A stretch of DNA of 39,738 bases from a virus. This document shows positions 1-39,265 of this stretch, in pieces. The position numbers and the translations under genes were made by a program. The DNA lies in IMG/VR virus record IMGVR_UViG_3300047277_000115, positions 1 to 39,738 of that record. One strand, given 5' to 3'. The notes beneath the pieces are model-generated. The model saw only the letters and a list, made by a program, of their open reading frames with translations. It searched no databases and was not told where the DNA came from. The stretch's first letter is position 1. Each line of letters opens with the position of its first letter.

Positions 1-49
1 GAAGGAGAATGTACAGCTGAAGAAGTATGGGGTTGTGTTGGAGGGGTGA
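1..49 (+). CDS. 3' fragment of a replication initiator gene (second rep copy, cut by the window edge)
   Basis: Reading from base 2, this encodes KENVQLKKYGVVLEG followed by TGA at 47-49. It is identical at protein and DNA level to the C-terminus of the Rep protein encoded on the opposite strand at 35186-36007. The rest of this copy lies outside the window, so I cannot tell whether it is a complete second rep, a truncated duplicate, or the overlap left by an assembler at a collapsed inverted repeat. It reads toward the early operon, whereas the intact copy reads away from the iterons toward the fiber module. Confidence 0.7.
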   Translation, partial: KENVQLKKYGVVLEG

Positions 50-91
50 GGAGGGAGGGGAGGGGTTTTTGATGTTGTTCGTGGCTCTCCC
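1..91 (+). repeat. 91-bp inverted repeat, left copy (rep 3' end)
   Basis: These 91 bases are the exact reverse complement of 35144-35234. Identity stops abruptly at 92/35143, and the window starts inside the repeat, so its real length is unknown and could extend leftward through the whole rep gene and beyond. The copy contains the last codons and stop of rep plus about 40 bases of flanking sequence with an unusual G-rich run (43-65). Confidence 0.97.
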
Positions 92-113
92 ATAAAAAAA
101 TAAAATAAATAAA

Positions 114-143
114 TGGTCATAACGCGGTCAAATATGGTATAAT
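114..143 (+). promoter_or_regulatory. Putative sigma70 promoter of the leftmost operon
   Basis: A perfect -10 box TATAAT lies at 138-143, with a weak -35 (TGGTCA, 114-119) 18 bases upstream. The predicted transcript starts near 150, before the first gene at 210. GGTCA-type words at 115, 126 and 158 overlap and follow the promoter, which suggests repressor control. The -10 is clear and the -35 is inferred. Confidence 0.6.
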
Positions 144-157
144 ATCCGTTCTAAAAT

Positions 158-170
158 GGTCAAACAGACC
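158..170. promoter_or_regulatory. Putative operator, GGTC-N5-GACC dyad
   Basis: An inverted repeat GGTC AAACA GACC sits just downstream of the predicted start of transcription. Related half-sites (GGTCATA at 115, GGTCAAA at 126) overlap the promoter. Similar GGTCA words also lie near the rep promoter on its coding strand. No repressor gene is recognisable in the window, so the binding protein is unknown. Confidence 0.4.
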
Positions 171-209
171 GTTGATGGACGAATTTAACACGCTAATAAG
201 GGGGAAAAA

Positions 210-18851: not shown

Positions 18852-20120
18852 TTAACTAAATACAATATCAGTATAACCTATACTACGAAAACCTAAGTCT
18901 TGGGCATTATACTTAGCTATCTTACTAGCAGTTACTTTAGTCAATTCAAGTTTATGGAATGTAACAGTTACTACTTTACCAGCAGTATCAGCAATATCTG
19001 CATAGCATAAAGTAAATCTATGTAATGCCTCTAACTTAGTATCTGGATTATAACTAGCCGCAGATGTGTCTTCTAAGATAGTAAGAGTTAAATCAGAAGG
19101 TAATGCACCTTTAGACCAACCATCTACAGATGAAGTCATATATCTACTATATTCAAAACCTGTGGTATTAGGAGATACTACTTTATCAAATACTATATTA
19201 GTAGACCCAGTAGGTAGTGCTGGAGGTGTAAATGTGATATTAGCAGGTTCTGTAGAACCAGACCATAACTCTAATAAGGCTAGATTAACTGTAGTAGATT
19301 TAACACTCTCAGATATAGTAGTTTTCTGATTTTGAAAATCTGGTGTAATAGACGGTTTCTCAATAGAAAGTGTAGAACCTACATTACCTTGATAGTTAAA
19401 CTTTAGTTTAGGTTTACTACCTAAGTTTATGTTAAAATCAAAAGTACCTCTAGCATTAGTAATAGTATATGTTTTTTGAGTAAGTGAAAGATCAGGAGAT
19501 GCTTTACGAATCTCAATGGTCATATACTTATTAGATGCTTGTGAGTTAGTAATTGTATACTTACTAATAGCTGTTACTGGGATTACTACAGCCATACCTG
19601 AAGATTGAAACCAATCTGCCATAGGTATTTCTGATACTAACGGCGGAGAACTTGTAGTACCTTTAACAGGTAAGAAAGTCTCAAAATCAAACTTAGCAAA
19701 ACGATCTGTTATTACAGTAGTTTCATCTCTATTAAGTTCATCGCCTGTATATTCAAAAGCTTCTGATGTTAATTCTACTGTAAAGTTTAGGTTAAGAACT
19801 GCTAAGGCATTTTTAGGACCTAAACCTGTTCTAAAAGCCGCCGCCGATATAAGTACAAGACTATTAGCTTCTAATACAATAGCCGTGTCAGATGTTACTG
19901 TAAGAACTCTACCAGCCGCTACATCAGACCCATTAGTAATATAACTACCTACAGCTACTTCTGTAAGAAACTTAGTACCTACGCCAGTCACAGCAGTAGT
20001 AGATAAAGATGTAGTTATTGTACCAGTAGGTGTTGTATTGATAACAGATACATTCTCTGCAATCTGCGCACAACCATAGATAGCAATTGCTTTTTCATTA
20101 AACTTACCTAACTGAGCCAT
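18852..20120 (-). CDS. V: Major tail (tube) protein V-like, 422 aa
   Basis: The gene precedes G/T and follows the terminator-protein gene, the lambda V position. The N-terminus MAQLGKFNEKAIAIYGCAQIAENV is followed by a Gly/Thr-rich beta region (residues about 30-95) that looks like an inserted Ig-like or beta-sandwich domain. The core includes AFEYTGDELNRDETTVITDRFAKFDFE, typical of tube proteins. A final segment resembles a decoration domain. At 422 aa it is larger than lambda gpV (246 aa), consistent with added surface domains. Its ATG overlaps the previous stop as TAATG. It should polymerise into the tail tube. Confidence 0.82.
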   Translation of the reverse strand: MAQLGKFNEKAIAIYGCAQIAENVSVINTTPTGTITTSLSTTAVTGVGTKFLTEVAVGSYITNGSDVAAGRVLTVTSDTAIVLEANSLVLISAAAFRTGLGPKNALAVLNLNFTVELTSEAFEYTGDELNRDETTVITDRFAKFDFETFLPVKGTTSSPPLVSEIPMADWFQSSGMAVVIPVTAISKYTITNSQASNKYMTIEIRKASPDLSLTQKTYTITNARGTFDFNINLGSKPKLKFNYQGNVGSTLSIEKPSITPDFQNQKTTISESVKSTTVNLALLELWSGSTEPANITFTPPALPTGSTNIVFDKVVSPNTTGFEYSRYMTSSVDGWSKGALPSDLTLTILEDTSAASYNPDTKLEALHRFTLCYADIADTAGKVVTVTFHKLELTKVTASKIAKYNAQDLGFRSIGYTDIVFS

Positions 20121-20284
20121 TAGATTTCCTCATTAAGTGTTTGTTGTATACTACGAGTAGGTTCGATAGGTTCTTTAACTGATGCCTTATCTAACTGTTC
20201 TCTTAACTTTTCTAACTCACCTTCTGAATAGTCTGGACTATGTAGTCCTATCGTACCATCTGGATATTCAATATATACTGCCAT
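20120..20284 (-). CDS. Small protein between tail terminator and tail tube, 54 aa
   Basis: The frame is open to 20323, but ATG 20282-20284 (MAVYIEYPDGTIGLHSPDYS) has a good ribosome site (AGAGGTAG) and is the better start. The C-terminal part is a charged helix (EGELEKLREQLDKASV). Stop and the start of the tail tube gene overlap (TAATG), so it is coupled to that gene. Function is unknown; a tail assembly accessory role is suggested only by position. Confidence 0.6.
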   Translation of the reverse strand: MAVYIEYPDGTIGLHSPDYSEGELEKLREQLDKASVKEPIEPTRSIQQTLNEEI

Positions 20285-21707: not shown

Positions 21708-22832
21708 TTACATTACAGTCCAACAAGCTACAGAGTTAATATCAGTATGACCCATTAAGTAGTTCATATGAATCTCACTCTCTTGTTTACCAGATTTAAT
21801 ATCTTTCCATGTGTTTACATAACGTGGTAAAGGTGCAAATCCAGCATCAGGGTGCATAATACGACCATATACTTTAATACCAGATTCTTTACTAGGTAAT
21901 ACTAACATTTTACCAGAACCAATATAGCTAGTCTCTACACCAGTAATACGATCATGATAGATAGCACCATAAGTAAAGATATCAACCATAGTACCATCAC
22001 CTAAGTTTAGAGTTCTACGGAAGTTTAAATCCTGATATTTCTCTACTACAGGTAATACGTGTAACATGATTCTGTTATCAACAGCAAGAGTTAAGCTAGC
22101 CGCAGAAGCATAGTTCTTAGTGATATCAGCTTCTAAAGCATCCCAAGCATTACTTGATAAGATAACAGCAGTTACGTTATTACGTCTGCGTACTGTATTA
22201 CAAGCAGTGATAAGGTCTTTATAAGGAGTACCACCTACAGCAGACCAAGCACGTGAGCCTACAGAACCACCAGTAGGAGTTAAAGTAGTTAAATCTACAG
22301 CAGGTACATAACCTTTAGCAAAAGTAGCACCATCAGTTACAGTAGTTCTACCAAAGTCATATAACACTGAAGGATGCATAGATGAGCTTGCAGTATATAC
22401 ACCATTTACAAGAATAGACGCCGCATTAAGTTCAAACAAGTTCTCAAAGTTAAATTCAGTATATGCAAGTTTCTTACGGATATTAGCTACCCAGTTCGCC
22501 ATTACATCTACATTACCAAAGTCATTGCCAATAGCACGTTGGTTAATCTCTTCCCAATCAGGAGATGTTAAACCTTCTTTAACATAAGCAAAACGTAGTT
22601 CTTGAGTACCATAACCTTGTAGTTGCATGATAGGAGCATCCATAGTAGGTGCAACATACATAGCTACAGTGTTCTTAGCTTGAAACTCACGATCAAAGTT
22701 GACTGTTTCAGTACTTTTATACTCTACTCTACTAAACCAAGTCTGTAAGAAGTTAGGACGGGCAATTCTATTAGCTGGAATAACACCATCTAATACTTTA
22801 CCCATTTGATACGGTGATAAAAATTCAGACAT
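21708..22832 (-). CDS. E: Major capsid protein E-like, 374 aa
   Basis: The protein has the family pattern of lambda gpE: an N-terminal arm (SEFLSPYQMGKVLDGVIPAN), the FLQTWFSRVEYKSTETVNFD segment, YAPP-like AMYVAPTMDAPIMQLQGY, a central domain with WDALEADI, and a C-terminal HPDAGFAPLPRYVNTWKD. It forms the icosahedral shell with HK97 fold. It is encoded directly after the decoration protein (TAATG overlap), as D-E in lambda. Length 374 against lambda's 341. Confidence 0.93.
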   Translation of the reverse strand: MSEFLSPYQMGKVLDGVIPANRIARPNFLQTWFSRVEYKSTETVNFDREFQAKNTVAMYVAPTMDAPIMQLQGYGTQELRFAYVKEGLTSPDWEEINQRAIGNDFGNVDVMANWVANIRKKLAYTEFNFENLFELNAASILVNGVYTASSSMHPSVLYDFGRTTVTDGATFAKGYVPAVDLTTLTPTGGSVGSRAWSAVGGTPYKDLITACNTVRRRNNVTAVILSSNAWDALEADITKNYASAASLTLAVDNRIMLHVLPVVEKYQDLNFRRTLNLGDGTMVDIFTYGAIYHDRITGVETSYIGSGKMLVLPSKESGIKVYGRIMHPDAGFAPLPRYVNTWKDIKSGKQESEIHMNYLMGHTDINSVACWTVM

Positions 22833-23653
22833 TAGTATGTCTCCCCAAGTCTTTTAAAGGTTAATGGTTCAAAATCTGTATTCTCTACAAATTTCTTCTT
22901 TAATAGGTTAGATTCAGCAGATGTACCTGAACAACCAGTATTATAAGCAGTACAAGCAGTAGTTCCTGCCGATGTAGTAATAGTATCAACTGTAACATCT
23001 ACAGCCCATACTAAAGCATCTGCCCAGAATGAAGCTTCAGTATAAACAGATGCCTCAACATCACCAGAAGTAGCGTCTACGTCAAATGCTAATACACCAG
23101 CAATCTTATTAAATGCCGCATATTGTACAATAGCTACAGAACCTGCACCTGCACCAGTACCTGTAATAGCTACGTCAGTTGCAGAAGCTGCACCAGTTCC
23201 AGTAGCATCAAATCGTACTTTAGTAGGACTAGCTGATGTTGTACCGTATCCTGCAAGTGTACCAGAAAATACACCAATAGTAGCTACAGGATAACCTTTA
23301 GCTAAGATAATAGCATTAGCTTGCGCAGAAGTAGTACCAGATACTAGACCTGACCAAATATCTGCAAGTTGTGCCGCTGTTACAGAACTAGAACCTGCTG
23401 TAAATGTAAGACCTGCTAAGATTACAGTCTGTCCAGTAGTAATACCAGATGCAAAAGTAACTAAAGCAGATTCAACTAAACCACCATGAGCAATAACTTT
23501 ACCATTAACATCTGATTCAACAAAACTTAATGCTTTGATTACTTGACCAGATTTAACAGTAACAATCTTAGATGCTCTATCTCCTGCTCTAGCAAAGGTA
23601 GCTTTAGGAGTTTGGTCGGGATAAGTAATCCAACCACCGTTATTAGTAGCCAT
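22832..23653 (-). CDS. D: Head decoration protein D-like with inserted domain, 273 aa
   Basis: The ends of the protein match gpD: N-terminal KATFARAGDRASKIVTVKSG with VIKALSFVESDVNGKVIAHGG, and C-terminal NKIAGVLAFDVDATSGDVEA with YTEASFWADALVW. Between them (residues about 62-178) lies an extra Gly/Ala/Thr/Ser-rich beta domain including TTGQTVILAGLTFTAG and FSGTLAGYG, a module I associate with repeats in bacterial surface adhesins and some phage proteins. gpD trimers bind the capsid three-fold axes and stabilise packed heads; lambda gpD is only 110 aa, so this one should project an extra domain from the capsid surface. Confidence 0.85.
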   Translation of the reverse strand: MATNNGGWITYPDQTPKATFARAGDRASKIVTVKSGQVIKALSFVESDVNGKVIAHGGLVESALVTFASGITTGQTVILAGLTFTAGSSSVTAAQLADIWSGLVSGTTSAQANAIILAKGYPVATIGVFSGTLAGYGTTSASPTKVRFDATGTGAASATDVAITGTGAGAGSVAIVQYAAFNKIAGVLAFDVDATSGDVEASVYTEASFWADALVWAVDVTVDTITTSAGTTACTAYNTGCSGTSAESNLLKKKFVENTDFEPLTFKRLGETY

Positions 23654-24042
23654 TATTTAATTCCTGCGAATGGGTTAATATCTTTACCTACTAAATCTAA
23701 TGCTTTATCAAGAGTATCTGCAAAAGATTTAGTAGCGTTTGGTTTATCTAATGAGCCTAAAGCTTCAGTAGTATCTACATGTGTAGAATCTTGTAAAGCA
23801 CCTTTAATAACTTCAAAAGACATAAGCACAGTTTCAATATTAGCATCTTTATCAATAAAAGATGTAGCGGCTTCTTGTAGTTTGATATCTGAACCAAAGG
23901 CTTTTTGAGCTTTGATAATATCTAAGCATCGTTGTTTTTCAGCAATACGGGCAGTAGCGATAGAAAGAGTAATCTCTGACTTAGCTTTACCTAGTTCTTC
24001 TGTAAGGGCGATAATCTTCCCTTGAGCTTCTTCTAATGTCAT
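23653..24042 (-). CDS. Nested scaffold protein (Nu3-like), 129 aa
   Basis: An internal in-frame ATG (24040-24042) is preceded by AAAGGTACAATT, nearly the same leader (AAAGGTATAGTT) that precedes the full-length start, with the same spacing. The product MTLEEAQGKIIALTEELGKA continues as a helical acidic protein ending DINPFAGIK. This reproduces the lambda C/Nu3 arrangement, where scaffold is the C-terminal part of the protease made in larger amounts from its own start. Confidence 0.78.
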   Translation of the reverse strand: MTLEEAQGKIIALTEELGKAKSEITLSIATARIAEKQRCLDIIKAQKAFGSDIKLQEAATSFIDKDANIETVLMSFEVIKGALQDSTHVDTTEALGSLDKPNATKSFADTLDKALDLVGKDINPFAGIK

Positions 24043-24864
24043 AATTGTACCTTTAGGTAGTTGGGTGGATTTTATATTACTTTCTTCATTCCCAATAAAG
24101 GAATCTTGTTGCTCGGACTTAACCGATAGTGTAGGTGTTAATGGATTAGCTCCGAACAATACACATGAATTTTCTCTAATATCTACTTTAGGTATTAGAT
24201 AGAAGTATCCACGTTTATCTACAATGTCTTTATTAATAACTTTAGGGTAGTTAGCATCCCAGATAGCTTTCTCAACTTTATCTTGTTCATTTGAAGAGTT
24301 AATAGCTAATTTAAGTTCTGAGTAGCTCATACCAATACTATGTTGATTGATCTTACCATTACTATAGAACTTAAATACATCTTCATTATAGTCTTTACGT
24401 ACAGTAGACTGCATAATAAGTGCTGTAGTAGTTCCAGACTGGTCGAGACCTAGTTCTTTAAGAGATAGTACTTTTGTATATACTTTAGTAACATCACCTA
24501 CATGAGCTGTAGAACTCTGTCTATGGTCTGCTATATGTGGAATACTTGTACCACGAGTAGCTATACTTTCATCATAAGCTTTATCAGTGATAACATCCAT
24601 CTGAGAATCACAAAACCATGCTGTGTTACATACTATAGTGACATCAAGTGAGTTAGGATCACCTAGTGGGTCAGAAGGAGGGGTTTCTCCAGCATCTTTA
24701 GAACTTTCAGAACTTTCAGTTTTAACTTCTCTAGGTGTTACTACTACAGTAGATACTAAAGAGTCAGAAAACTTTAACCCTTCCTTTTTAGTCTGAAGTA
24801 GGATTTTTTTATTAGTTCTTAGATAGGTAAAGAGTTCTTCACCATGTAAATTATCTAAATTCAT
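23653..24864 (-). CDS. Prohead protease-scaffold fusion, 403 aa
   Basis: I start at ATG 24862-24864 (MNLDNLHGEELF), which has ribosome site AAAGGTA, instead of the longer frame from 24909. Residues about 75-250 form a HK97-type prohead protease domain with His114 (IADHRQSS) and Ser176 in INQHSIGMS. The C-terminal third (from residue about 275) is a helical, acidic scaffold-like region that is also made separately from an internal start. The protease should process scaffold and possibly portal during head maturation. The protease type is the HK97 (U35/S78) style, unlike the S49-type gpC of lambda, so the head module is mosaic. Confidence 0.85.
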   Translation of the reverse strand: MNLDNLHGEELFTYLRTNKKILLQTKKEGLKFSDSLVSTVVVTPREVKTESSESSKDAGETPPSDPLGDPNSLDVTIVCNTAWFCDSQMDVITDKAYDESIATRGTSIPHIADHRQSSTAHVGDVTKVYTKVLSLKELGLDQSGTTTALIMQSTVRKDYNEDVFKFYSNGKINQHSIGMSYSELKLAINSSNEQDKVEKAIWDANYPKVINKDIVDKRGYFYLIPKVDIRENSCVLFGANPLTPTLSVKSEQQDSFIGNEESNIKSTQLPKGTIMTLEEAQGKIIALTEELGKAKSEITLSIATARIAEKQRCLDIIKAQKAFGSDIKLQEAATSFIDKDANIETVLMSFEVIKGALQDSTHVDTTEALGSLDKPNATKSFADTLDKALDLVGKDINPFAGIK

Positions 24865-24956
24865 AACTATACCTTTGTTAATTGTTACGTGATTATCGCA
24901 TAAACACAATATAAAGTCAAATATATATATTATGTTTATGCAATTTATTTACTATA

Positions 24957-26432
24957 CTATGTACCTGTACTGTTACTATTAGCTTGATTATTATTAGCCT
25001 GAGACATACTAGATGAAACTGTACCAGTGTTTAGAAAGATACCATAGGCTTCTAATTTCTTAATCTCTTCACGATCAGCTATTATTTCTTCAGGAGATAG
25101 ATTACGTTCTGCTAGTACATTAGTGTATGTATCCATACCATTTTGTAAGGCAAGTAAGTCTGCTTGATTATCTTTTAAATCATCCATACCTCTCCAACGT
25201 GGTAGTTGAAAATAAGGCACAGCACTAGAACATTTAGAATTATAAACAACTGCAAGTGATTTAAATGCATCTGCTATAGGTTTTTCTCGCAAAGGTATAA
25301 ATATAAAGTTATGTAGATACTCTAGGCGATTACGTGACTGTATAGCCATACCTATAAGAGAACTATAGTTAAGTCCAGCAGTATCACCTGTAAGTTGATG
25401 ATATAAAGCATCTGCTACTGAAGCTACCTTACGTAATTCTGTTTCTATAAGTGTTCCAAAGTTAGCACCTATATCTGTGCCTTGAAACATCTTAGCTGTC
25501 TCACCTTTATTTAGATATAATACCTGTGATTCCTCTGCATTGGTCTTTAAGTGTAATTTAGGACTTTCAGGAGTACCTGTATCTTCTACTTTACCTATAG
25601 GTAGTAAACTAATAGCTCCTGCTGTTTGTTCTATCAAAACTGCTACACTCTGTGCGGCTTTCTGTTTACTCACTGTAGCCGTGATAAGATCATCTAGTTC
25701 ATAAAGTGTTAGTAAAACAGGGGCTAGTAGAGGAATACCTAACCATTGTCCAGCCTCATCTCGTATAAAAGTATGTATGATTTCCTCAGCAGGTACAGTT
25801 ATACGACCTAAAGGTTGATTAGATAGTAAAGTTGTCTCAAGCATACTCTTACGAAAATGATATTTAGTAGGTACTGAGTTAATAAAGGTCATACCATAAC
25901 GTACAGTTTCATTAGGATTATAATCTTCATTAGCTATAGAGTTATAAGTATTAGTATACATCACATCATGAAGGATTGATGGTATTAGCTGTAGTTTTAA
26001 TGGTATTATATTAGAATTACCATCACGTGTTATAAGTAGTCTGATATAGCTTGCACCTGTCTGGAATATAGAGGCGTTAGATATACCTTGTAAAGTTTTC
26101 ATATCACCATGACCATCAAACGATGGGTTAGCAGAGAATTCATCCCAATAGGTTTGCATTAACCTATGTGCTTTACCATTAGGGTATTTCCATACTACTT
26201 TAATATGCCCTGCGTTAGTAATCCAGTTAGTTAATGCTCGTTTACCATAACCATTGTTTCTACATATGTTACGTGAACGATTCTGAAGAAAACGTAGTTC
26301 TTTACCTGCTAGTACATCTGCTTCACCATCGAATAGATGTTTTATACCTGTTTTATAGTTTACAGCCGCTCCTTCAAATGCAGTAGGAAGTTTATTTATA
26401 TTAGACCAGATTGTCTCTGTCTCCGAAGCCAT
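24957..26432 (-). CDS. B: Portal protein, lambda gpB family, 491 aa
   Basis: The segment LRFLQNRSRNICRNNGYGKRALTNWITNAGH near the N-terminus is the conserved family signature. Later come EIIHTFIRDEAGQWLGIPLLAPVLLTLYELDD and DALYHQLTGDTAGLNYSSL, the latter matching the typical G-D-x-S-x-x-N-Y-S-S box of lambda-type portals. It forms the dodecameric ring through which DNA passes. Lambda gpB is 533 aa. It starts just before the gpW stop, in lambda gene order W-B-C. Confidence 0.93.
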   Translation of the reverse strand: MASETETIWSNINKLPTAFEGAAVNYKTGIKHLFDGEADVLAGKELRFLQNRSRNICRNNGYGKRALTNWITNAGHIKVVWKYPNGKAHRLMQTYWDEFSANPSFDGHGDMKTLQGISNASIFQTGASYIRLLITRDGNSNIIPLKLQLIPSILHDVMYTNTYNSIANEDYNPNETVRYGMTFINSVPTKYHFRKSMLETTLLSNQPLGRITVPAEEIIHTFIRDEAGQWLGIPLLAPVLLTLYELDDLITATVSKQKAAQSVAVLIEQTAGAISLLPIGKVEDTGTPESPKLHLKTNAEESQVLYLNKGETAKMFQGTDIGANFGTLIETELRKVASVADALYHQLTGDTAGLNYSSLIGMAIQSRNRLEYLHNFIFIPLREKPIADAFKSLAVVYNSKCSSAVPYFQLPRWRGMDDLKDNQADLLALQNGMDTYTNVLAERNLSPEEIIADREEIKKLEAYGIFLNTGTVSSSMSQANNNQANSNSTGT

Positions 26433-26433
26433 A

Positions 26434-26715
26434 TTATAAATCTCCTTTACATACTACAAGTGGGATACAAGCATTTTGTCTAAATAATGGTCTTATATTA
26501 GGCGTTAATGAATTGATTGTATCAAGAAGTTCTCTACGGTAACTTTTTAAATCTATAAGATTTACATCACCATAGCGGAATAGTCGTTGAAAGTTACCTG
26601 AACCTACACGAAGTTCTACTAAAGACTTACCTTGTATAAGAGTCTCTATAGCTATATTTACTTGTGTAAGTTGTCTTTGTGCTTCATCTAGTGAAATTCC
26701 AGCCATGCTAGTCAT
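26434..26715 (-). CDS. W: Head completion protein gpW-like, 93 aa
   Basis: The protein has the gpW/gp25-type connector pattern: an N-terminal helix with DEAQRQLTQVNIAIETLIQG, then the beta hairpin VELRVGSGNFQRLFRYGDVNLIDL and a second helix YRRELLDTINSL. Lambda gpW is 68 aa and stabilises packaged DNA below the portal. The C-terminus here is longer and contains two cysteines. The start at 26715 has an AAGGAA ribosome site. It directly precedes the portal gene. Confidence 0.85.
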   Translation of the reverse strand: MTSMAGISLDEAQRQLTQVNIAIETLIQGKSLVELRVGSGNFQRLFRYGDVNLIDLKSYRRELLDTINSLTPNIRPLFRQNACIPLVVCKGDL

Positions 26716-26739
26716 ATAAGTTCCTTAGTGTTATGTTAA

Positions 26740-27579
26740 TTATATAGCGCAACCACAACCACCTACATCAAATCTATCAGAGTCAGCTAAATCTTTTTCA
26801 AGATACTCTTCTCTGTAAGTTTTCATAGTTAGGTAATGTACTTTACCATCTATAGTTTTCTTTAAGAAGGGTAGTGTATTAACTTCTTTAGCTAATACCT
26901 GTTCCATATCTTCATGTTCTTTGTACCTTTCTGGTAGTTTTTCATATAGGTTTTTAAAATGTCCTAGACCAGCTTTAACACAGAAACCACCACAGTTATT
27001 GTGACCAAAACCTAAAGTATATAACCTAGGTCTAGCTATACCGAATTTTTCACTAAAGTCTTTAGGTACTATTTTACCCTCTTCAACAAGTGTACTACGG
27101 TATATCCAAGGATTCATATAAGATTGAACTCTTGTAAGTCGATGATGTTCTGAAAAGTCTATACCAAGATGTACTTCTGCGTTAAGATATGTTACATCTT
27201 TAAAACGTATATCTTCTCCATGTATATTTTTAATACCTAAAGATTCTTTAACTATGTAACCATAGTTTTTACCTATCCATCCATTAAGAAGGTCTCTTTT
27301 TAATATGCTAGAACATATATCTACCCTAGAGTTACCTACAAATCTACTATCCCTAAATAATTCCCACGGTGTTCTACCATCAGCTAAAGTAACTAACTCA
27401 CATCCTAGAAAGCCCACTACTTCATCTTTAAATCTATATAAATCCTCATCTTCCATCATAGTATCAGCAAAAAGTAGTAGTACATTCTCTTTACCATACT
27501 TTTCACAACAGCTTTTAGCTTCTGCAAAACTACCCATACCACCTGAAAAACTTACTATATGTTTAATTGCCTCAGTCAT
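26740..27579 (-). CDS. PP-loop ATPase / PAPS reductase-like (adenine nucleotide alpha hydrolase fold), 279 aa
   Basis: The N-terminus has a PP-loop, SFSGGMGSFAEAK (residues 10-22), then LLFADTMMEDEDLYRF, LADGRTPWELFRD and SRVDICSSILKR. Further on come GFGHNNCGGFCVKAGLGHF with Cys196 and Cys200, and a C-terminal GGCGC (Cys275, Cys277). This matches an uncharacterised PP-loop family related to CysH and DndC that occurs in phages and mobile elements. Such enzymes adenylate a substrate and often move sulfur or nitrogen to it. The substrate is unknown. Its start overlaps the terminase stop by 8 bases, so it is expressed within the packaging module, between large terminase and gpW. Confidence 0.85.
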   Translation of the reverse strand: MTEAIKHIVSFSGGMGSFAEAKSCCEKYGKENVLLLFADTMMEDEDLYRFKDEVVGFLGCELVTLADGRTPWELFRDSRFVGNSRVDICSSILKRDLLNGWIGKNYGYIVKESLGIKNIHGEDIRFKDVTYLNAEVHLGIDFSEHHRLTRVQSYMNPWIYRSTLVEEGKIVPKDFSEKFGIARPRLYTLGFGHNNCGGFCVKAGLGHFKNLYEKLPERYKEHEDMEQVLAKEVNTLPFLKKTIDGKVHYLTMKTYREEYLEKDLADSDRFDVGGCGCAI

Positions 27580-30387: not shown

Positions 30388-30416
30388 ATTATAACATTTA
30401 TCCTAACTAGAGGCAA
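30388..30416 (-). promoter_or_regulatory. Putative promoter of the leftward late operon
   Basis: On the minus strand a perfect TATAAT lies at 30388-30393, with a weak TTGCCT -35 (30411-30416) 17 bases upstream. It would start transcription toward the terminase genes. The divergent region 30303-30415 must also hold a rightward promoter for the fiber operon, but no clear pair of boxes is visible there. Confidence 0.45.
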
Positions 30417-30619
30417 TGACTATGGATGAACTACATGCTAAAGATATACGTATAACAGTAATAGATGACTCTGAAAGTATAACATTAGAAGAGTTACAAG
30501 AGATTAAAAAGTTAGTATCTTTATCTAAAGCTACTAAAATTATTGCAGGAATTGCTTTTGGTATTGTAGGGTTATTAGGCTTACCTACAGTACTTTCTTG
30601 GGTTTCTAAACAACTTTAA
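30416..30619 (+). CDS. Small membrane protein at the head of the fiber operon, 67 aa
   Basis: The ATG at 30416 has a purine-rich leader (CTAGAGGCA). A second in-frame ATG is two codons later. The N-terminal half is acidic and helical (DDSESITLEELQEIKKLVSL) and is followed by a single membrane segment, residues about 43-62 (IAGIAFGIVGLLGLPTVLSW). Similar tiny coiled-coil-plus-TM proteins accompany fiber or lysis genes in many phages. It could be a second holin-like protein or a membrane adaptor; the sequence does not decide. Confidence 0.65.
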   Translation: MTMDELHAKDIRITVIDDSESITLEELQEIKKLVSLSKATKIIAGIAFGIVGLLGLPTVLSWVSKQL

Positions 30620-30639
30620 CTATCTTTAAGGATACTATA

Positions 30640-31068
30640 ATGGCTTCTACCAATTTTACCAATCTTACACGTGCTTTAGTTCAAGGTAACTTAAACTTTG
30701 GGTCTAATACTTTTAAAGTATTACTTGTATCAGCCGCTCCTACAGAAGCTCAATTAGATACTTGGGCTAATAGATCAGATATCACTACTGAAATCACTGG
30801 TACTGGATATACTGCTGGCGGTTTAGCACAAGGATTTACATTAGATGCTATTGATACAGCTAATAATCGTCAAAGTATCACATGGTCTAATATTATCAAT
30901 GGCTGGACAGGTGCTACCTTTAGTGCTTTCGGTGCAATTATTTATAAGAACTCAGGTACTTCTAGTACTGATACACTTTTACATTATATTGACTTTAGTG
31001 CTTTAGTAGCTTGTACTAATGGTACGTTCAGTATCTCATACTCTACACCTTTATATATTAACCGATAG
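30640..31068 (+). CDS. Putative virion structural / fiber-associated protein, 142 aa
   Basis: The protein is beta-rich and starts MASTNFTNLTRALVQGNLNF followed by FKVLLVSAAPTEAQL, with EITGTGYTAGG and a central SITWSNIINGW. This matches a widespread small family of phage virion proteins with the order F-K-V-x-L-x-x-x-A-P, G-x-G-Y-T-A-G-G, then a W in a Ser/Thr-rich context. Such proteins decorate the virion or attach fibers. Its stop is eight bases before the large fiber gene, with which it is probably co-expressed. Confidence 0.75.
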   Translation: MASTNFTNLTRALVQGNLNFGSNTFKVLLVSAAPTEAQLDTWANRSDITTEITGTGYTAGGLAQGFTLDAIDTANNRQSITWSNIINGWTGATFSAFGAIIYKNSGTSSTDTLLHYIDFSALVACTNGTFSISYSTPLYINR

Positions 31069-31076
31069 GTATTAAT

Positions 31077-33122
31077 ATGTCTTTAATAACAGCAGATAGG
31101 GTTAAGGAGACTACTACAGTTGTAGGTACAGGTACTATTACCTTGCTTGGAGCATCTACTGGTTTTCAATCTTTTGCGGCTATAGGTAATGGTAATACTT
31201 GTTACTATGCTATTGCTTCCGTAGATGGTACTTATTGGGAAACAGGTATTGGTACATATACTCTTAGCGGAACTACCTTAGCTAGAACTACAGTATTAGC
31301 ATCATCTAACGCAGGAGCATTAGTTAATTTTATTGCAGGTATTAAAGAGGTATTTGTTACATATCCTGCGAGTAAAAGTGTATTTACTGATAGTATTGGT
31401 TGTATTAATACAGTAGGAAGTAGTCCCTATCCTACAATAAGACCGAGTCTTAATTTAGACTTTGCAAACAGTAAACAGTTAGACCCTAGAGTTACTTTTA
31501 GTAGGTTGTCTACAGCAACATATTATGACGGACAGACAACGGCTAAGGCTGAAGAGAATTTACTTAAAGGTTCTAATGATTTTGGTAATAGTACTTATTG
31601 GACACCTACTAATGCATCAACACCAGTAACGGGTATAACTGCTCCAGATGGTACATCAACTGCTTATATTTTTGCTGCTACAGCGGCTAATGCTACGCTA
31701 TATCAAACATTAACTACAGGTGCTTTACCTTATACACTTACCCTTTATATCCAGCGTGTAACAGGAACAGGTACAGTTAATTTAACGCTAGATGGTACTA
31801 CGCTAACACCGCAAACTACAACGGCTTCATGGGTTAGGTATTCTTTACCTAATGTAACACCTACAGCGGCATCTCATACTATTGGTTTACAGCTTGCGGT
31901 ATCGGGTGATGTGGTAAATATATGGGGCGCACAGCTAGAACAACGCTCCTCAGCTACAGCTTATACACCTACAACTACAGCACCGATAACTAACTACATA
32001 CCACAGTTAATGACTGCACCTGCTGGTATAGCTAGGTTTGACCATGAACCCTTGACGGGTAAGAGTTTGGGGTTGTTGATTGAGGAGGGGAGGAGTAATT
32101 TACTGACTAATTCATTAGGGTATTCAACTCCTACCAACACAACTAAGATTTCAAACTGTGTAATTGCTCTAGATGGTTCGCAAACAGCTTCGTTATACGT
32201 TACAGATACCAATTTGTCTGGTCATTTTGTTGCGTCATATGCATCGGTATCATCAGGTGTTGCTAATACTTCTTTTACATATTCGACCTATATAAGCAAT
32301 AAAGGTATTACAGCCTGTCAGATATGGCTTTATGCTAATAGCAACACTGGCGACAGAGTAATAGCAAGTTTTGACGTATCATTAGTTGATCCGCGCGTCA
32401 GCATTACATCAACTAATACAGTAACCGTACCAACTGCAAATATTAATTATACAAGCACACCCGTAGGAAATGGTTGGTTTAGATTAACAGTAACAGGGAT
32501 GTTTACTGCTGTACCTATATCTATAGGATTTACACAAACTATAGGCAACACAAGTGGAGCAATAGGTAATAATTATGCAGGGGCTATTCTATGGGGCGCA
32601 CAACTCGAAGCAGGTTCATTCGCTACAAGTTATATACCTACTACCACAGCCGCAGTAACTAGATCAGCAGATCAAGCTAGTATGACGGGGGTGAACTTTA
32701 GTAGTTGGTATAATCAGGCGCAGGGGAGTTTTTACTTAGATTTTGAAGTAGCTAGACAAGCGGTAGGTGCTGAATTTCTATTATATTGTGCTAATAACAT
32801 TAGACTTTTATATATTGGTGGTAGTAGTACTAATTTAGTTATGTATGACGGGGTAACTCCTTATTATGCTACAAGTGTACAAAATAATTTATCTTATGGT
32901 GCTGGGGTATTTCACAAAACTATGTCAGCGTATACTACAACAACAAACACACTAGTTACTGATTCTAGTAGTCCATTTACAGCCTCTTTTATATCTGCCT
33001 CTCAAGCAACAGGTATTTATATAAATAGTGTATCTGGTGGTTATTTTAACGGTCACATCCGCAAACTCTCCTACTACCCCAAAGCCCTTTCTACTACTGA
33101 ACTACAGGCATTGACCTCATGA
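31077..33122 (+). CDS. Tail fiber / receptor-binding protein with duplicated jelly-roll domains, 681 aa
   Basis: The N-terminal domain (residues 1-100, TLLGASTGFQSFAAIGNGNT and YYAIASVDGTYWETGIGTY) is a common fiber attachment module. Then comes LDFANSKQLDPRVTFSRLST, two similar beta-sandwich domains each ending in WGAQLE (near residues 282 and 508), separated by the conserved TGKSLGLLIEEGRSNLL, and a C-terminal lectin-like domain starting SMTGVNFSSWYNQAQGSFYL. The repeated domains look like carbohydrate-binding jelly rolls. The conserved connecting segments use a different base composition from the flanking domains, a sign of module exchange. The stop overlaps the next start as ATGA. Confidence 0.82.
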   Translation: MSLITADRVKETTTVVGTGTITLLGASTGFQSFAAIGNGNTCYYAIASVDGTYWETGIGTYTLSGTTLARTTVLASSNAGALVNFIAGIKEVFVTYPASKSVFTDSIGCINTVGSSPYPTIRPSLNLDFANSKQLDPRVTFSRLSTATYYDGQTTAKAEENLLKGSNDFGNSTYWTPTNASTPVTGITAPDGTSTAYIFAATAANATLYQTLTTGALPYTLTLYIQRVTGTGTVNLTLDGTTLTPQTTTASWVRYSLPNVTPTAASHTIGLQLAVSGDVVNIWGAQLEQRSSATAYTPTTTAPITNYIPQLMTAPAGIARFDHEPLTGKSLGLLIEEGRSNLLTNSLGYSTPTNTTKISNCVIALDGSQTASLYVTDTNLSGHFVASYASVSSGVANTSFTYSTYISNKGITACQIWLYANSNTGDRVIASFDVSLVDPRVSITSTNTVTVPTANINYTSTPVGNGWFRLTVTGMFTAVPISIGFTQTIGNTSGAIGNNYAGAILWGAQLEAGSFATSYIPTTTAAVTRSADQASMTGVNFSSWYNQAQGSFYLDFEVARQAVGAEFLLYCANNIRLLYIGGSSTNLVMYDGVTPYYATSVQNNLSYGAGVFHKTMSAYTTTTNTLVTDSSSPFTASFISASQATGIYINSVSGGYFNGHIRKLSYYPKALSTTELQALTS

Positions 33123-33508
33123 AAAGACTACTACTTAAAGCACATAAAGATTTTACAATAGATAGCTTATCTTCTGCAGAACAATACGCTATTAACTCTG
33201 TATTTGCTCAACTTAGTCTACCTATGATAGGTACAGTAGAGTATAACAATAGTATTATTATAGACGTAGTCACTGCCGAAAGTGTAACTTTAGAGAATTT
33301 TAGTGATCTTAAGCTACCTTTAGAGTTGTATGGTATGTGGGATTGTAGGTGTTCAGGCGAACTTAATACAATAGTACCTTTAAATACAGACTTTATTAAC
33401 TTTCTACCTGTTCCAGTTAGTTTTGATTCGGAAGGTAATGAAGTTGTATTAGATAAAGTACTTGCATTGCCACACAACTGGGCTGGCTGGCCTGAGGTGG
33501 TGCTATGA
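33119..33508 (+). CDS. Hypothetical protein of the fiber operon, 129 aa
   Basis: Start and stop are both coupled by ATGA overlaps (33119-33122 and 33505-33508), so the gene is certainly part of the operon. The product has a basic helical start (MKRLLLKAHKDFTIDSL) and a beta-rich remainder including SLPMIGTVEYNNSIIIDVV and a C-terminal LALPHNWAGWPEVVL. No family recognised. It may be a chaperone or attachment factor for the fiber, by position. Confidence 0.7.
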   Translation: MKRLLLKAHKDFTIDSLSSAEQYAINSVFAQLSLPMIGTVEYNNSIIIDVVTAESVTLENFSDLKLPLELYGMWDCRCSGELNTIVPLNTDFINFLPVPVSFDSEGNEVVLDKVLALPHNWAGWPEVVL

Positions 33509-33744
33509 GTAATTATATTTATACTGTTGTAGCCTATCGCTATGGTGAGAAAGATCAGACTAACTATACACCTTTAGTAGATGCGAATATCTACGTAGTA
33601 GGTTGTTTTGATAGTTTTAAAGACGCACAACACTCAGCACATCTTGAAAAAACATGTAGTTCTTTTGAATGTGAGATACTTAAAGTACCAGTTAATGGTG
33701 ATAAAAAGTCTATTGAAATAATACAAGGATTAGATGATGAGTAA
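33505..33744 (+). CDS. Hypothetical protein of the fiber operon, 79 aa
   Basis: Coupled to the preceding gene by ATGA and overlapping the next start by several bases. The sequence is a compact alpha/beta pattern: YIYTVVAYRYGEKDQ, NIYVVGCFDSFKDAQHSAHL, CEILKVPVNGD, with two or three strands and a helix. The size and layout suggest a small soluble domain. I recognise no motif, and the two cysteine positions are not obviously metal-binding. Confidence 0.7.
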   Translation: MSNYIYTVVAYRYGEKDQTNYTPLVDANIYVVGCFDSFKDAQHSAHLEKTCSSFECEILKVPVNGDKKSIEIIQGLDDE

Positions 33745-34108
33745 CTTAATCGGTACAGCACCAGAACAAGTGCCTGTCAATGGTATGCTAGGTAAACTTG
33801 CGACTATGGATAGTGATACTCCATTTTCGGGCGCATTAAAGACACTACAGCAAGCACCTACCCTTGCTTCAGCCACTACTATCATACCTACTACACTAGT
33901 CACCTTTATATCAGGTACAACATCTATAGCTAATATAACTGTACCTGAAGCACTGATTAAGACTGGTGGTGAGATTAGCCTTATTCCTACAGGTTTATGG
34001 TCTACAACTTCGGCAGGTAATATTGCTTTAGCTACCACTGCCGTGGTAGGTAAACTTCTTGTACTTGTGTATGATGCAGGTACTAGCAAATGGTATCCGA
34101 GTTACTAG
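33737..34108 (+). CDS. Putative structural beta-rich protein, 123 aa
   Basis: Two adjacent ATG codons occur; I choose 33737, seven bases after AAGGA, since the first ATG is too close to that site. The N-terminus SNLIGTAPEQVPVNGMLGKLA is a pattern found at the front of many phage tail or capsid-decoration proteins. The remaining region is Thr/Ile/Ala-rich and predicted beta (TTLVTFISGTTSIANITVPE, then GKLLVLVYDAGTSKWYPSY). Probably a virion component attached with the fiber set. Confidence 0.68.
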   Translation: MSNLIGTAPEQVPVNGMLGKLATMDSDTPFSGALKTLQQAPTLASATTIIPTTLVTFISGTTSIANITVPEALIKTGGEISLIPTGLWSTTSAGNIALATTAVVGKLLVLVYDAGTSKWYPSY

Positions 34109-34117
34109 GAGTTTATT

Positions 34118-34834
34118 ATGTTAGGGTTTTCTCCAATAAGTTCTAGTCCTATAGCGTCAAGTAATGGTACTTTTCTACTTACTTGTATAGTACCTAGTGT
34201 AGCACTACAAAGTTCTACTCCTAGTATTGGAGTTAGCTCGCCTAGTAGTGTTAGTCTAAAAATAAGTAATGCAGAAGCTTACTCTTCGAGTGCTATAAAT
34301 GTACTATCACCACAGATAATACTAAGTCTTCCTAATTGTATCATAAATGCAAGTGCAGTTCTTACAGGTAGTGTACCAGTAGTATCTTTAAGTCCTATAT
34401 CCGCTAACTATTCGGCTGGTATGGTTAATAATGTAACTGTTAGTTCTGTTACTTTAACACCTTTTAGTGCTGGGCTGAGTATATCTAGCTCAGCCTTAGG
34501 AGTTGTTGGGCAGATTGGTATGTCAAAGGCTGATGGTATACCTATTAGCTCTGCGGCAAGGACTGGTACACTGATACCTGTAGCTTTAACAGGTGTTATA
34601 GGGAGTATAAATGCTAGTAGTAATCCTATAGCAGGTATAAATAGTATTAATATTATATTACCATCTACGATTGTTAGTGCTACAAGTAATGTTACCGCTG
34701 GATTAGCCTCTATTAACTTCGGGGCAATGGGAATAGCACATACATTTACATATTTTATTAGAAGTAGCTCATATATACTACTTGGTAGTAGAACTACTGA
34801 AGTAAAACTCTTTTCGCGCGGCAAATTTATATAA
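34118..34834 (+). CDS. Putative low-complexity structural protein, 238 aa
   Basis: A good ribosome site (GGAG) lies seven bases before the ATG. The protein is strongly enriched in Ser, Ile, Val, Ala and Pro, with an irregular repeat of about 20-30 residues (P-x-V-x-L-S-x-x-S type strands), and ends in a more complex segment SSSYILLGSRTTEVKLFSRG. It looks like an extended beta fiber or shaft. An antisense frame of 200 codons overlaps it but is a by-product of its composition. Function inferred only from the fiber operon context. Confidence 0.65.
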   Translation: MLGFSPISSSPIASSNGTFLLTCIVPSVALQSSTPSIGVSSPSSVSLKISNAEAYSSSAINVLSPQIILSLPNCIINASAVLTGSVPVVSLSPISANYSAGMVNNVTVSSVTLTPFSAGLSISSSALGVVGQIGMSKADGIPISSAARTGTLIPVALTGVIGSINASSNPIAGINSINIILPSTIVSATSNVTAGLASINFGAMGIAHTFTYFIRSSSYILLGSRTTEVKLFSRGKFI

Positions 34835-34843
34835 GGTAAGTCG

Positions 34844-35131
34844 ATGATTGATAAAAATACAGGGCTTTTATATGTGGTAAAGCGTCCTACACCTGAAAAA
34901 CGTAAGTATAGTTTAGACTTTAGTAGGTTACTTTCTGCTATACAGAGTGTAGTTAGTGTAACAGCAAGCCCTAGTGATCTCATAGTAGGAGTGCCTAGCT
35001 TTACTAACACTGTGGTATTGGTAGACTTAAGTGAAGGTACTGATGGAGTTAACTACTTTCTTGACACTACTGTGCTTGATATTGCGGGTAATAGGGTTAC
35101 AGAACGTATAATGGTTAAGGTATCGTATTAA
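34844..35131 (+). CDS. Fiber-tail adaptor-like protein, 95 aa
   Basis: The layout KYSLDFSRLLSA, SVVSVTASPSDLIVG, VVLVDLSEGTDGVNYFLDTT and GNRVTERIMVKVSY follows the Ig-like pattern of small phage proteins known as fiber-tail adaptors (Y-x-L-D-W/F-x-x-x-L at the front, then A-G-x-x-G-x-x-Y-x-x-x-x-x-x-T, and R-x-x-x-x-x-x-x-V at the end). It is the last gene of the rightward operon and converges on rep. Such adaptors hold fibers at the tail tip or head surface. Confidence 0.65.
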   Translation: MIDKNTGLLYVVKRPTPEKRKYSLDFSRLLSAIQSVVSVTASPSDLIVGVPSFTNTVVLVDLSEGTDGVNYFLDTTVLDIAGNRVTERIMVKVSY

Positions 35132-35143
35132 GGATACGGGAGG

Positions 35144-35234
35144 GGGAGAGCCACGAACAACATCAAAAACCCCTCCCCTCCCTCCTCACCCCTCCAACAC
35201 AACCCCATACTTCTTCAGCTGTACATTCTCCTTC
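35144..35234 (-). repeat. 91-bp inverted repeat, right copy (end of rep)
   Basis: This is the exact reverse complement of 1-91. It covers the last 15 codons and stop of rep and the convergent intergenic region with the fiber operon. On the plus strand it is strikingly C-rich (35170-35192), and G-rich bases just outside it (35138-35146) can pair with it to form a long stem that might act as a bidirectional terminator. Confidence 0.97.
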
Positions 35235-36007
35235 CTCAGCTGTTTTATCACCGTATCCTTCTCATTCTCAGCTTCAACCAACTTTTTACTGACTATCTCA
35301 TAAGGTATGATTATACTAATAGCTTTCCTACCATTCTTCTTACCTATAACTATAGTCTTATGATCTAATAGTATTAAACCTTTCTTAGTCAGTTCCTCCA
35401 TAGCAGGTTTCAACACACCACGTTTGAACTCTTTATACTCTCTATAACTAGAACCTACGTTCCATGAGTCATATAGGTAGACCAAATCAAACTCTTTCTT
35501 CCCGTGCAACCCTTTAAACCTCTCTTGGAATATTAAATCGTATAGTCTACTAGCGTATGTACCATCTATCCTAAGTACATCCATTATATAAAGCCTAGTA
35601 AAGTTACTTTTAATCTCAGAGATATAGGGTAAGATATTTGTACTCCACATAAGTTGTACAGTTTGTGTACCAGCGTCTACTTCTATAGCTTGTATCCAAC
35701 GAAAGTCAGTTCTCTTCTTACCTTCGATCTCTGTGATACTACGGGAGTATAGTTTACTAGCCGCTTCACGTAGGTCTTGATAAGCATAGTGTCTACTAAC
35801 ATTACATAAGTCAGCATATTCATTTACATTCATAGAATACCATTCAGTAGATGATAACTCTTTAGTGCTGTTAAGTCGGGATAAAGTTAATAATATTATA
35901 CGTTTCTCTATAGTGGTCAGAGAGTAGCAGGAATTAAGAAGTTTATTAGATAGGCTAGCATGTGAGTTGGGTATTGTTAAGGTAGATATTGTAGTTATAG
36001 CTTTCAT
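35186..36007 (-). CDS. rep: Plasmid replication initiator, Rep_3 superfamily, 273 aa
   Basis: The N-terminal region SLTTIEKRIILLTLSRLNST is the typical start of Rep_3/RepB winged-helix initiators. It is followed by VNEYADLCNVSRHYAYQDLR (first HTH), the LYSRSI segment, IQAIEVDAG, LPYISEIKSNFTRLYIMDVL and the second winged-helix domain with RLYDLIFQE and EFKRGVLKPAMEEL. The C-terminus is a short coiled coil (ENEKDTVIKQLRKENVQLKK). Iteron-like repeats and a consensus promoter lie directly upstream. Length 273 is normal. This makes the element a replicating plasmid. Its final 15 codons recur at the left edge of the window. Confidence 0.92.
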   Translation of the reverse strand: MKAITTISTLTIPNSHASLSNKLLNSCYSLTTIEKRIILLTLSRLNSTKELSSTEWYSMNVNEYADLCNVSRHYAYQDLREAASKLYSRSITEIEGKKRTDFRWIQAIEVDAGTQTVQLMWSTNILPYISEIKSNFTRLYIMDVLRIDGTYASRLYDLIFQERFKGLHGKKEFDLVYLYDSWNVGSSYREYKEFKRGVLKPAMEELTKKGLILLDHKTIVIGKKNGRKAISIIIPYEIVSKKLVEAENEKDTVIKQLRKENVQLKKYGVVLEG

Positions 36008-36039
36008 ATAGGAATTAATTGTGTAAATTTTAAAATATT

Positions 36040-36068
36040 ATTATACACCTTTTTGGCTAATTTGTCAA
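36040..36068 (-). promoter_or_regulatory. rep promoter, perfect sigma70 consensus
   Basis: On the minus strand TTGACA (36063-36068) and TATAAT (36040-36045) are separated by exactly 17 bases, a complete consensus match and the strongest promoter visible in the window. The 3' boxes lie 33 bases before the rep ATG. The iterons end about 30 bases upstream, so Rep binding could repress its own promoter. Confidence 0.85.
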
Positions 36069-36096
36069 ACCAAAATGACCTGATTTCCGTATATGT

Positions 36097-36136
36097 GGGT
36101 AAACATACACCTTATGGCGGGTAAACATACACCTTA
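36097..36136. repeat. Two 18-bp iterons of the plasmid origin
   Basis: GGGTAAACATACACCTTA occurs at 36097-36114 and 36119-36136, exactly 22 bases apart, about two helical turns, so both copies face the same side of the DNA. Two identical direct repeats upstream of a Rep_3 initiator gene are the normal layout of an iteron-type origin. Two copies is few; degenerate extra copies may exist. Confidence 0.75.
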
Positions 36137-36462
36137 AAACCCCTCAGCCCGCGTATTCCGTGACCTCCAGACCCCTCTAACTATAACTAGCAAATCAAAA
36201 TCAAAATCAAAAGCAAATGTGTATAGTGGGTTATACTAGCTCGCCATACTCTATAACTCTAAACTCTACTATATTATATACAAATAAACAAGTTTCACTA
36301 ACGAAACGAAGTAGGGAAGAGGCTTGCCTTGAACCTACTAGATTGAGTTCCCGACCGACAACTTACACATGTAGCATATAGCTCATCAGGCTCAGTATGC
36401 TAATCGTATATATAGCTCAATAGCATATATAGGCTCATCATGCTCATCCTACTCATAGGCTA

Positions 36463-36493
36463 ACCGTATGGACTCTTGCTACATACGTAGTGA
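36463..36493 (+). repeat. GGACTCTTG-hairpin unit 1
   Basis: ACCGTATGGACTCTTG (36463-36478) is followed by CTAC ATAC GTAG (479-490). With flanking TTG and TGA, the stem can be extended to seven pairs including two G-U wobbles. Confidence 0.6.
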
Positions 36494-36520
36494 TATAACC
36501 ATGTGTAACCGTCTTTGCAT

Positions 36521-36555
36521 ATACTATACTATACTATACTATACTATACTATACT
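36521..36555 (+). repeat. Tandem ATACT, seven copies
   Basis: Seven exact pentamer copies in a row. Pentamer tracts change length easily by slippage. In this context they are part of the repeat-rich gene-free region. Confidence 0.95.
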
Positions 36556-36594
36556 ATATCCTGTCCTGCCCTGTCCTATCAACACTGTGCAACA

Positions 36595-36622
36595 CGTATG
36601 GACTCTTGTCTGTGCCAGACGA
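36595..36622 (+). repeat. GGACTCTTG-hairpin unit 2
   Basis: CGTATGGACTCTTG (36595-36608) leads into a perfect stem GTCTG/CAGAC (36608-36612, 36616-36620) with loop TGC. The stem can be extended by U-G and U-A pairs. Confidence 0.6.
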
Positions 36623-36677
36623 TGTGGGCTATATATATAGCATAGCTCACAGTATAACCATCATATATCATATAACC

Positions 36678-36704
36678 GTGTAACCTGTGTAACCTGTGTA
36701 ACCC
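36678..36704 (+). repeat. Tandem GTGTAACCT, three copies of a 9-mer
   Basis: Two exact units and a third with one change (GTGTAACCC). The 9-base period equals that of the AAACCGTAT array at the right end, and related words (AACCGTGTAACC, TAACCGTAT) occur nearby. Confidence 0.85.
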
Positions 36705-36744
36705 TATCGCCCTGCATATCACCGTATCACCGTGTAACCGTATA

Positions 36745-36773
36745 ACCGTATGGACTCTTGTTAGCTAGCTAAC
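36745..36773 (+). repeat. GGACTCTTG-hairpin unit 3
   Basis: ACCGTATGGACTCTTG (36745-36760) leads into a stem GTTAG/CTAAC (36760-36764, 36769-36773) with loop CTAG. The first 16 bases are identical to unit 1. Confidence 0.6.
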
Positions 36774-36918
36774 CGTATCGCTATATCATCACCGTAGTAT
36801 ATATATACCATCACCTCTTGCTATACACACAGTGATACAGTGATACTATAACCTATATATCATCATCATCGCCCTGACCATAGTCTTTATATATATATAT
36901 ATCGCATCGCATCGCCCA

Positions 36919-36946
36919 ATGGACTCTTAGCTATCATCACCGTAGC
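36919..36946 (+). repeat. GGACTCTTG-hairpin unit 4 (variant)
   Basis: ATGGACTCTT (36919-36928) is followed by AG and then a short stem GCTA/TAGC (36930-36933, 36943-36946) with a nine-base loop that overlaps a copy of the ATCATCACCGTAG repeat. Confidence 0.45.
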
Positions 36947-37020
36947 GTAGCATATCATCACCGTAGGGGACTATCGTATGTACCATACCGTGCAACCATA
37001 TACTGTTACACTATCAACAT

Positions 37021-37150
37021 CGGCGACTTAGGTATCTCCGGCGACTTGTACTATATATAACATATATAACATCGGCGACTTGTACCATCATCATATAACA
37101 TATATATATATCCTCGGCGACTTGTACACTGTATCATCACTGGCGACTTA
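37021..37150 (+). repeat. CGGCGACTT repeat cluster, five copies
   Basis: CGGCGACTT starts at 37021, 37039, 37073 and 37115, and GGCGACTT at 37142 (preceded by T). Copies 2-4 share the longer CGGCGACTTGTAC. They are separated by TA-rich spacers of variable length (9 to 33 bases). A degraded copy may lie at 37382. Confidence 0.8.
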
Positions 37151-37217
37151 GCTATTCTTATATATATACTGTATACTCTCCGCACATAGTATCCCATCCC
37201 ACTCCCACCATATAGTA

Positions 37218-37239
37218 TACTCTTGTTAGCTGAACTAAC
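37218..37239 (+). repeat. GGACTCTTG-hairpin unit 5 (variant)
   Basis: TACTCTTG (37218-37225) leads into GTTAG/CTAAC (37225-37229, 37235-37239) with loop CTGAA. The stem sequence equals that of unit 3 but the loop differs. Confidence 0.45.
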
Positions 37240-37514
37240 TGTATACACCTATACCATCTATATGCAGAACATGTTGATCCGCGTTCCCGCTCAAATAGAA
37301 TATAGCATATTTACGTAGTATTTTTAATAAAATCCGCCCTTATATACTTTATATAGCTTTACTTTAACTAGTAGACTACTATGGCGACCTATAGTATTTA
37401 CACAGTGTAACTGTTTTGGGAAAATTTAGTGTATATAGATATAGGCTCTGTTACTCACACGCATATAGCTACAACCCTACCTAGTACCTTTCTAACTACC
37501 TACCTTATATATAC

Positions 37515-37548
37515 GTTCCCATACCGCCGGTAAAAGTAGTATGGGAAC
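37515..37548 (-). terminator. Hairpin after the last gene of the right-end operon
   Basis: GTTCCCATAC (37515-37524) and GTATGGGAAC (37539-37548) form a perfect 10-bp stem with a 14-base loop, nine bases beyond the stop of the 37558-37791 gene. No T-run follows, so it may act as an RNA 3' stabiliser or a Rho-independent terminator of weak type. Confidence 0.55.
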
Positions 37549-37557
37549 TTTCAAGGT

Positions 37558-38169: not shown

Positions 38170-38171
38170 TT

Positions 38172-38545: not shown

Positions 38546-39265
38546 TCATTCGCTATCTGATTTAAAAATCACTTGATACACATTATCACTTATAAGTTTA
38601 GTTCCTGACAGCTGATAACCTATCGAACTCAATAGTCCTAGACTGGATAGACTAGATAAGTCTAGGTTACCCACATATTGACCTTTGCCAGTAGGCAATA
38701 TGTCAGTAAAACCATTGTCCGTTAAAGTCTGGAACTTTATTGCAGACTCGATTTCATCTATTTCTTTAATTCTAAATACTTTATAGCTGTCAGCAGGTAC
38801 AAAGCAATCAACTATCTGCTTAAGTAGATCGGTAAGTTCCGCTTTAGTGGTTTTATCAGTAATGGCATAATACGACATAACTATATCACTTATAGCAACC
38901 TGATTTTTATTATCTAATCCTAATTTTATTAAATTATTAAGATATTGCTCACTAGTGATATTAGCTTTCGTCGTTATTAAAGCTTCACCCTTACCAGATA
39001 CTTTACTGCCTGTTTCGTGTTGATCTAAATGATTTTTAGATAGATAACCATCAGCTATGCTTGTGTCAAAAGACACTGGTGTTCCTATGCTTTTCATTTC
39101 AGCGATTGCGGTAAGAAGACTTAAACTTACTGCTTTGCCATGCAAGTAACCATCTTGTACGTGTTCCCATGTTTCGGGAGTCTTACCTGTAGCACCTTGA
39201 CCGGATACCCAATCAAGTAATAAAGATTTTGCAGACAGAGTATTTACATTGTTATTTATAGCCAT
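38546..39265 (-). CDS. Hypothetical protein, 239 aa, first gene of the right-end operon
   Basis: A GGAG site lies about eight bases before the ATG. The 239-aa protein is soluble and alpha/beta, with the phrases LLDWVSGQGATGKTPETWEH, HLDQHETGSKVSGKGEALIT, a long helix (TTKAELTDLLKQIVDCFVPA) and a C-terminal NLDLSSLSSLGLLSSIGYQL. The GATGKT stretch only superficially resembles a Walker A loop. I recognise no family. It is expressed from the operator-rich region to its right, with the duplicated genes following on the same strand. Confidence 0.72.
   Translation of the reverse strand: MAINNNVNTLSAKSLLLDWVSGQGATGKTPETWEHVQDGYLHGKAVSLSLLTAIAEMKSIGTPVSFDTSIADGYLSKNHLDQHETGSKVSGKGEALITTKANITSEQYLNNLIKLGLDNKNQVAISDIVMSYYAITDKTTKAELTDLLKQIVDCFVPADSYKVFRIKEIDEIESAIKFQTLTDNGFTDILPTGKGQYVGNLDLSSLSSLGLLSSIGYQLSGTKLISDNVYQVIFKSDSE

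Follow-up and report, generated by a model that had tools for sequence, protein, structure and literature searches.

A perfect inverted match at the left contig edge

Does an exact inverted copy of the end of a replication gene, lying at the very first bases of a viral contig, reflect a second replication locus, a long repeat or an erroneous join? We addressed this question in a window of 39,738 bases, which constitutes the entire IMG/VR virus record. A repeat search across the whole window retrieved a single inverted pair of at least 30 nt, in which positions 1-91 are 100% complementary to positions 35144-35234 (91 nt); BLAST of the record against itself recovered the same pair. By chance, no exact match of 91 nt is expected in 40 kb. 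The preliminary description had reported this pair and had placed its break at the window edge, inside rep, and both points were borne out. The match is exact from the first base of the contig, its left limit is the window edge, and it comprises the final 49 nt of rep, including the stop codon (35186-35188), together with 42 nt 3' of the gene. Its right limit is sharp, with similarity ending at 91/92 (equivalent to 35144/35143). The right contig end (39738) has no repeat partner anywhere else in the contig. Thus, the record does not carry an inverted repeat at both ends; given that the contig is incomplete, this describes the record rather than the molecule. The features discussed below are collected in Table 1.

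Table 1. Coordinates of features at the rep locus and at the left edge of the window
Feature	Position	Strand	Basis
Exact 91-bp duplicate of the rep 3' end, in the opposite orientation to the rep locus	1..91	+	Repeat search, self-BLAST
Promoter-like region for the gene at 210-503: A-rich stretch, three GGTCA boxes, TATAAT, GGGGG ribosome site	92..209	+	Sequence; putative promoter role
Stand-alone Rep_3 C-terminal (WH2) protein, 97 aa	210..503	+	Domain search, match to G001 Rep
Gene block convergent with rep; place and orientation as G001 block 23496-27482	30416..35131	+	ORFs, synteny
Strong hairpin between convergent genes	35120..35200	-	Folding: -35.7 kcal/mol, z -3.1
Matching segment at the rep 3' end, native position	35144..35234	-	Repeat search, G001 synteny
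rep, Rep_3 replication initiator (WH1+WH2), 273 aa	35186..36007	-	Domain search
Two 18-nt iterons (GGGTAAACATACACCTTA), spacing 22, upstream of rep	36097..36136	+	Repeats seen; putative role
239-aa gene, synteny anchor; its G001 homologue lies upstream of rep	38546..39265	-	Homology

The native rep locus and its relatives

The core of the window encodes a lambda-type virion set (gpA terminase, lambda-family portal, capsid protein E, tape measure, and GH19 lysin), and the window probably represents part of a tailed phage of the lambda type whose Rep_3 initiator is of the plasmid type. The product of rep is a complete Rep_3 initiator with both winged-helix units, WH1 and WH2 (Rep3_N, E = 2e-29; Rep3_C, E = 5e-10). 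Iterons adjoin the gene, as in a Rep_3 replicon, and these two 18-nt repeats likely mark a putative replication origin.

Relatives of the capsid were found in a few metagenome contigs, while a degenerate-pattern scan of GTDB genomes retrieved none and thus indicated neither a host nor an integrated copy. One relative, the 55-kb record IMGVR_UViG_3300020045_002782 (here G001), has a capsid 76% identical to that of the window. The order in G001 is the homologue of the 239-aa gene (19513-20277), a Rep_3 rep (22194-22889), the opposite-strand block (23496-27482), and the small and then the large terminase. The minus strand of the window is collinear with this order (39265-38546, 36007-35186, 35131-30416, and 30302 onward). 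Therefore, the rep locus at 35144 is in its ancestral place, and the 35144 junction is native. The G001 contig contains one rep only and covers the rep region without an inverted copy, the left flank of the window lying outside its coverage. Where the window stops, G001 continues with ∼18 kb of upstream genes (helicase, family-A polymerase, and ligase); thus, the window is probably incomplete, and its ends should not be equated with genome ends. Other searches returned no close relatives of rep or of a 41-mer around its end (IMG/VR), no DNA-level relatives of 35100-39738 (phage and plasmid collections), and no relatives of the 239-aa gene (direct scan).

Several further features were observed in these regions. 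The family-A DNA polymerase gene of G001 (L010, 7400-11105) is split over two open frames, the second with a weak LAGLIDADG-like match, and could possibly harbor an intein or homing element. In the window, two adjacent small genes (37866-38156 and 38214-38486) are paralogous (phmmer E of about 5e-19) and have similar flanking sequence. Two short tandem arrays, with AGTCCATC units of 8 and AAACCGTAT units of 9, lie near the right contig end (39612-39704) and may account for the end of the assembly at this point.

The hairpin between rep and the convergent block is very stable and GC-rich, has a G-quadruplex-like run, and can be folded from the rep transcript. The 91-bp copy stops within the distal arm of this hairpin; folding of the left-hand version was not significant (-13.9 kcal/mol, z -0.2). 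Because the fold is intact at 35144 only and is lost in the left version, the left junction looks derived or artificial.

A second rep-like gene beside the copied rep end

The copied rep end adjoins a small gene (210-503) and runs in the same direction. Its product gave a Rep3_C domain match above the Pfam cutoff (E = 5e-5) and shares 45% identity with the C-terminal portion of the full G001 Rep (E = 1e-21), which is its closest match; the window's own rep matches less well. A search for relatives of this gene gave two matches, both chance matches in repressor-like genes, and none was found in plasmids and phages. Since a random join would rarely bring the copied rep end next to a rep-type gene, we judge a real second locus to be slightly ahead of a chimera.

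Assembly-graph behavior and the favored explanation

Simulations reported with COBRA indicate that, where an assembler meets a repeat, the contig retains a terminal sequence as long as maxK (PMC10914622). To relate the 91 bases to such behavior, we used a toy de Bruijn graph with k = 91, which was error-free, operated without coverage or path extension, and contained random sequence for unseen parts. Exactly 91 bases of rep remained on the left when the genome carried a long inverted repeat or was a linear element with terminal inverted repeats (TIRs; models M1 and M1c), and a 600-bp duplication likewise gave an overhang of exactly 91 bases. Because long and short duplications produce the same overhang, the 91 bp are silent on the duplicated length.

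We tentatively favor, at a probability of about 0.45, a genuine short duplicate of the rep 3' end, inverted, at a second rep-like locus. This preference draws on the exact, edge-cut match, the COBRA simulations, the overhang obtained in the toy graph, the native state of the 35144 junction as indicated by G001 synteny, and the Rep3_C-containing neighbor oriented in the direction of the copied rep. Under this explanation, the assembler would have halted at position 1 because the rep 3' end has two neighbors in the graph, namely, position 35143 (native, leading into the convergent block) and base 92. A one-k-mer overlap remaining at this fork would then account for the 91 bases, and the fork itself would be caused by an inverted second rep 3' end of at least 91 bp located just upstream of the WH2 gene. 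We infer that the assembler used k = 91 and that the left adjacency (rep end to base 92) is present in the DNA, beyond the reads or the assembly. Among the options raised by the preliminary description, a partial rep duplication and an assembler fork overlap survive; its headline, a second inverted replication end, has no positive support. Should the inverted rep end prove genuine, this family of phages would possess two loci for a replication initiator, and the segment that they enclose could be inverted, an uncommon arrangement among phage-plasmids of the lambda type.

Several observations count against a short second copy. The value of 91 is absent from the maxK values of the COBRA benchmarks for metaSPAdes or MEGAHIT (99, 127, or 141) (PMC10914622), and none of the relatives covers the left junction (91/92). 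A copy that breaks within a hairpin arm and loses the terminator-like fold is the kind of product that template switching at a structured, G-rich site would give. The right end of the G001 contig (54774-55027) also looks like an assembly artifact, a fold-back in which the last 76 bases exactly invert 54774-54849, beside a copied 104-bp piece. Such contig ends can therefore arise without biology.

A possible chimeric join at a structured breakpoint

The second copy is closely followed by a chimeric join, to which we assign a substantial though smaller chance. Here, a few reads or an assembly error would connect the rep 3' end to base 92 over a coverage hole, leaving one rep and no inverted copy. 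The breakpoint is suited to such an event, as it falls inside the hairpin, with its G-quadruplex-like run, and beside an extremely A-rich stretch. Chimeras formed during MDA are mostly inverted (PMC10945365). In the CheckV test on IMG/VR, 33.2% of the inverted-repeat contigs with an estimate were of high quality, versus 90.0% for direct repeats (PMC8116208), and this low share also favors a chimera. When 14 IMG/VR contigs, including the window, were checked for terminal inverted matches, the G001 fold-back was the one case among the 13 others, a number too small to yield a rate.

In the toy graph, a chimeric read spanning a coverage hole (M4) yielded an overhang identical to that observed. The overhang was absent, however, when the native sequence upstream of base 92 was covered (M3), such that a chimera demands a coverage hole exactly at base 92. 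The join would also happen to adjoin a gene encoding Rep3_C. If a fork overlap or a chimera is responsible, the case calls for caution: neither the length of a repeat nor the presence of linear ends can be read from a metagenome contig whose terminus has a perfect inverted match.

Unlikely alternatives: long repeats, linear ends, and an invertible core

The headline of the preliminary description was a linear element in which the entire stretch from 35144 to the right end exists twice, as long TIRs around a 35-kb core. More broadly, an inverted repeat from 35144 to beyond 39738 could flank the core twice, either in a linear element, as its TIRs, or in a circle, as a repeat of the chloroplast kind. 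Models M1 and M1c reproduce the overhang for such a genome, and the contig runs from the core into rep on the right and ends one overlap into rep on the left, in the fashion of a collapsed repeat. Nevertheless, we consider this arrangement improbable. The duplication observed is limited to 91 bp, the G001 contig shows no long inverted repeat over the rep region (its coverage does not include the left flank), and synteny with G001 places ∼18 kb of replication genes past the right end of the window. Linear ends are further disfavored by the enzymes encoded. No match to protelomerase (PF16684) was found in the window, G001, G002, or G006, although the incompleteness of these records keeps this result from being proof. 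The G001 polymerase belongs to family A and is not protein primed. The terminase of the window is of the lambda gpA type, and terminases of this type usually package DNA at cos sites.

An imperfect palindrome (39301-39366) upstream of the 239-aa gene has perfect arms of 16 nt, a 13-nt loop, and further shorter arms. We examined it as a telomere candidate, which is unlikely because its center is not palindromic and no protelomerase was found; it is a possible operator.

A related and slightly more doubtful arrangement is a lollipop phage-plasmid, in which two identical rep/origin regions in inverted orientation would enclose the 35-kb structural core, and the stand-alone WH2 Rep fragment after one of them would regulate copy number or switching.

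The preliminary description had also raised an invertible 35-kb core, present as two isomers with a common rep. In a mixture of the two, one rep end would indeed have two neighbors, but we regard this option as very unlikely. In the toy graph (M2), such a mixture broke the core contig at base 92 without a rep overhang, and the 91 bases could be obtained only if the native left neighbor of base 92 were missing from the data. In addition, rep is an alternative neighbor at one end of the core only, an inverted crossover site at both core ends was not seen, and none of the proteins searched was identified as a recombinase. All explanations other than duplication, chimera, long repeat, and invertible core together retain an even slighter chance.

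Comparison with known systems

The left edge of the window resembles the end overlaps described with COBRA (PMC10914622) in that a contig end of fixed length is shared elsewhere in the assembly, here as the reverse complement. It differs in that the partner lies within the same contig and in that 91 is not a benchmarked maxK. Linear phage-plasmids of the N15 type likewise combine lambda-like structural genes (lambda-family portal and gpA terminase) with a plasmid replication gene; in contrast, the window encodes a Rep_3 initiator, with no protelomerase found and no telomere site shown. The rep locus itself has its counterpart in the iteron plasmids of the Rep_3 type (PF01051/PF21205), exemplified by Acinetobacter repM, which share the WH1+WH2 initiator and upstream iterons; identity to plasmid initiators such as RepM is ∼29 to 30%. 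Unlike in these plasmids, the rep of the window resides on a tailed phage, and an extra stand-alone WH2 protein is encoded at the other end of the contig.
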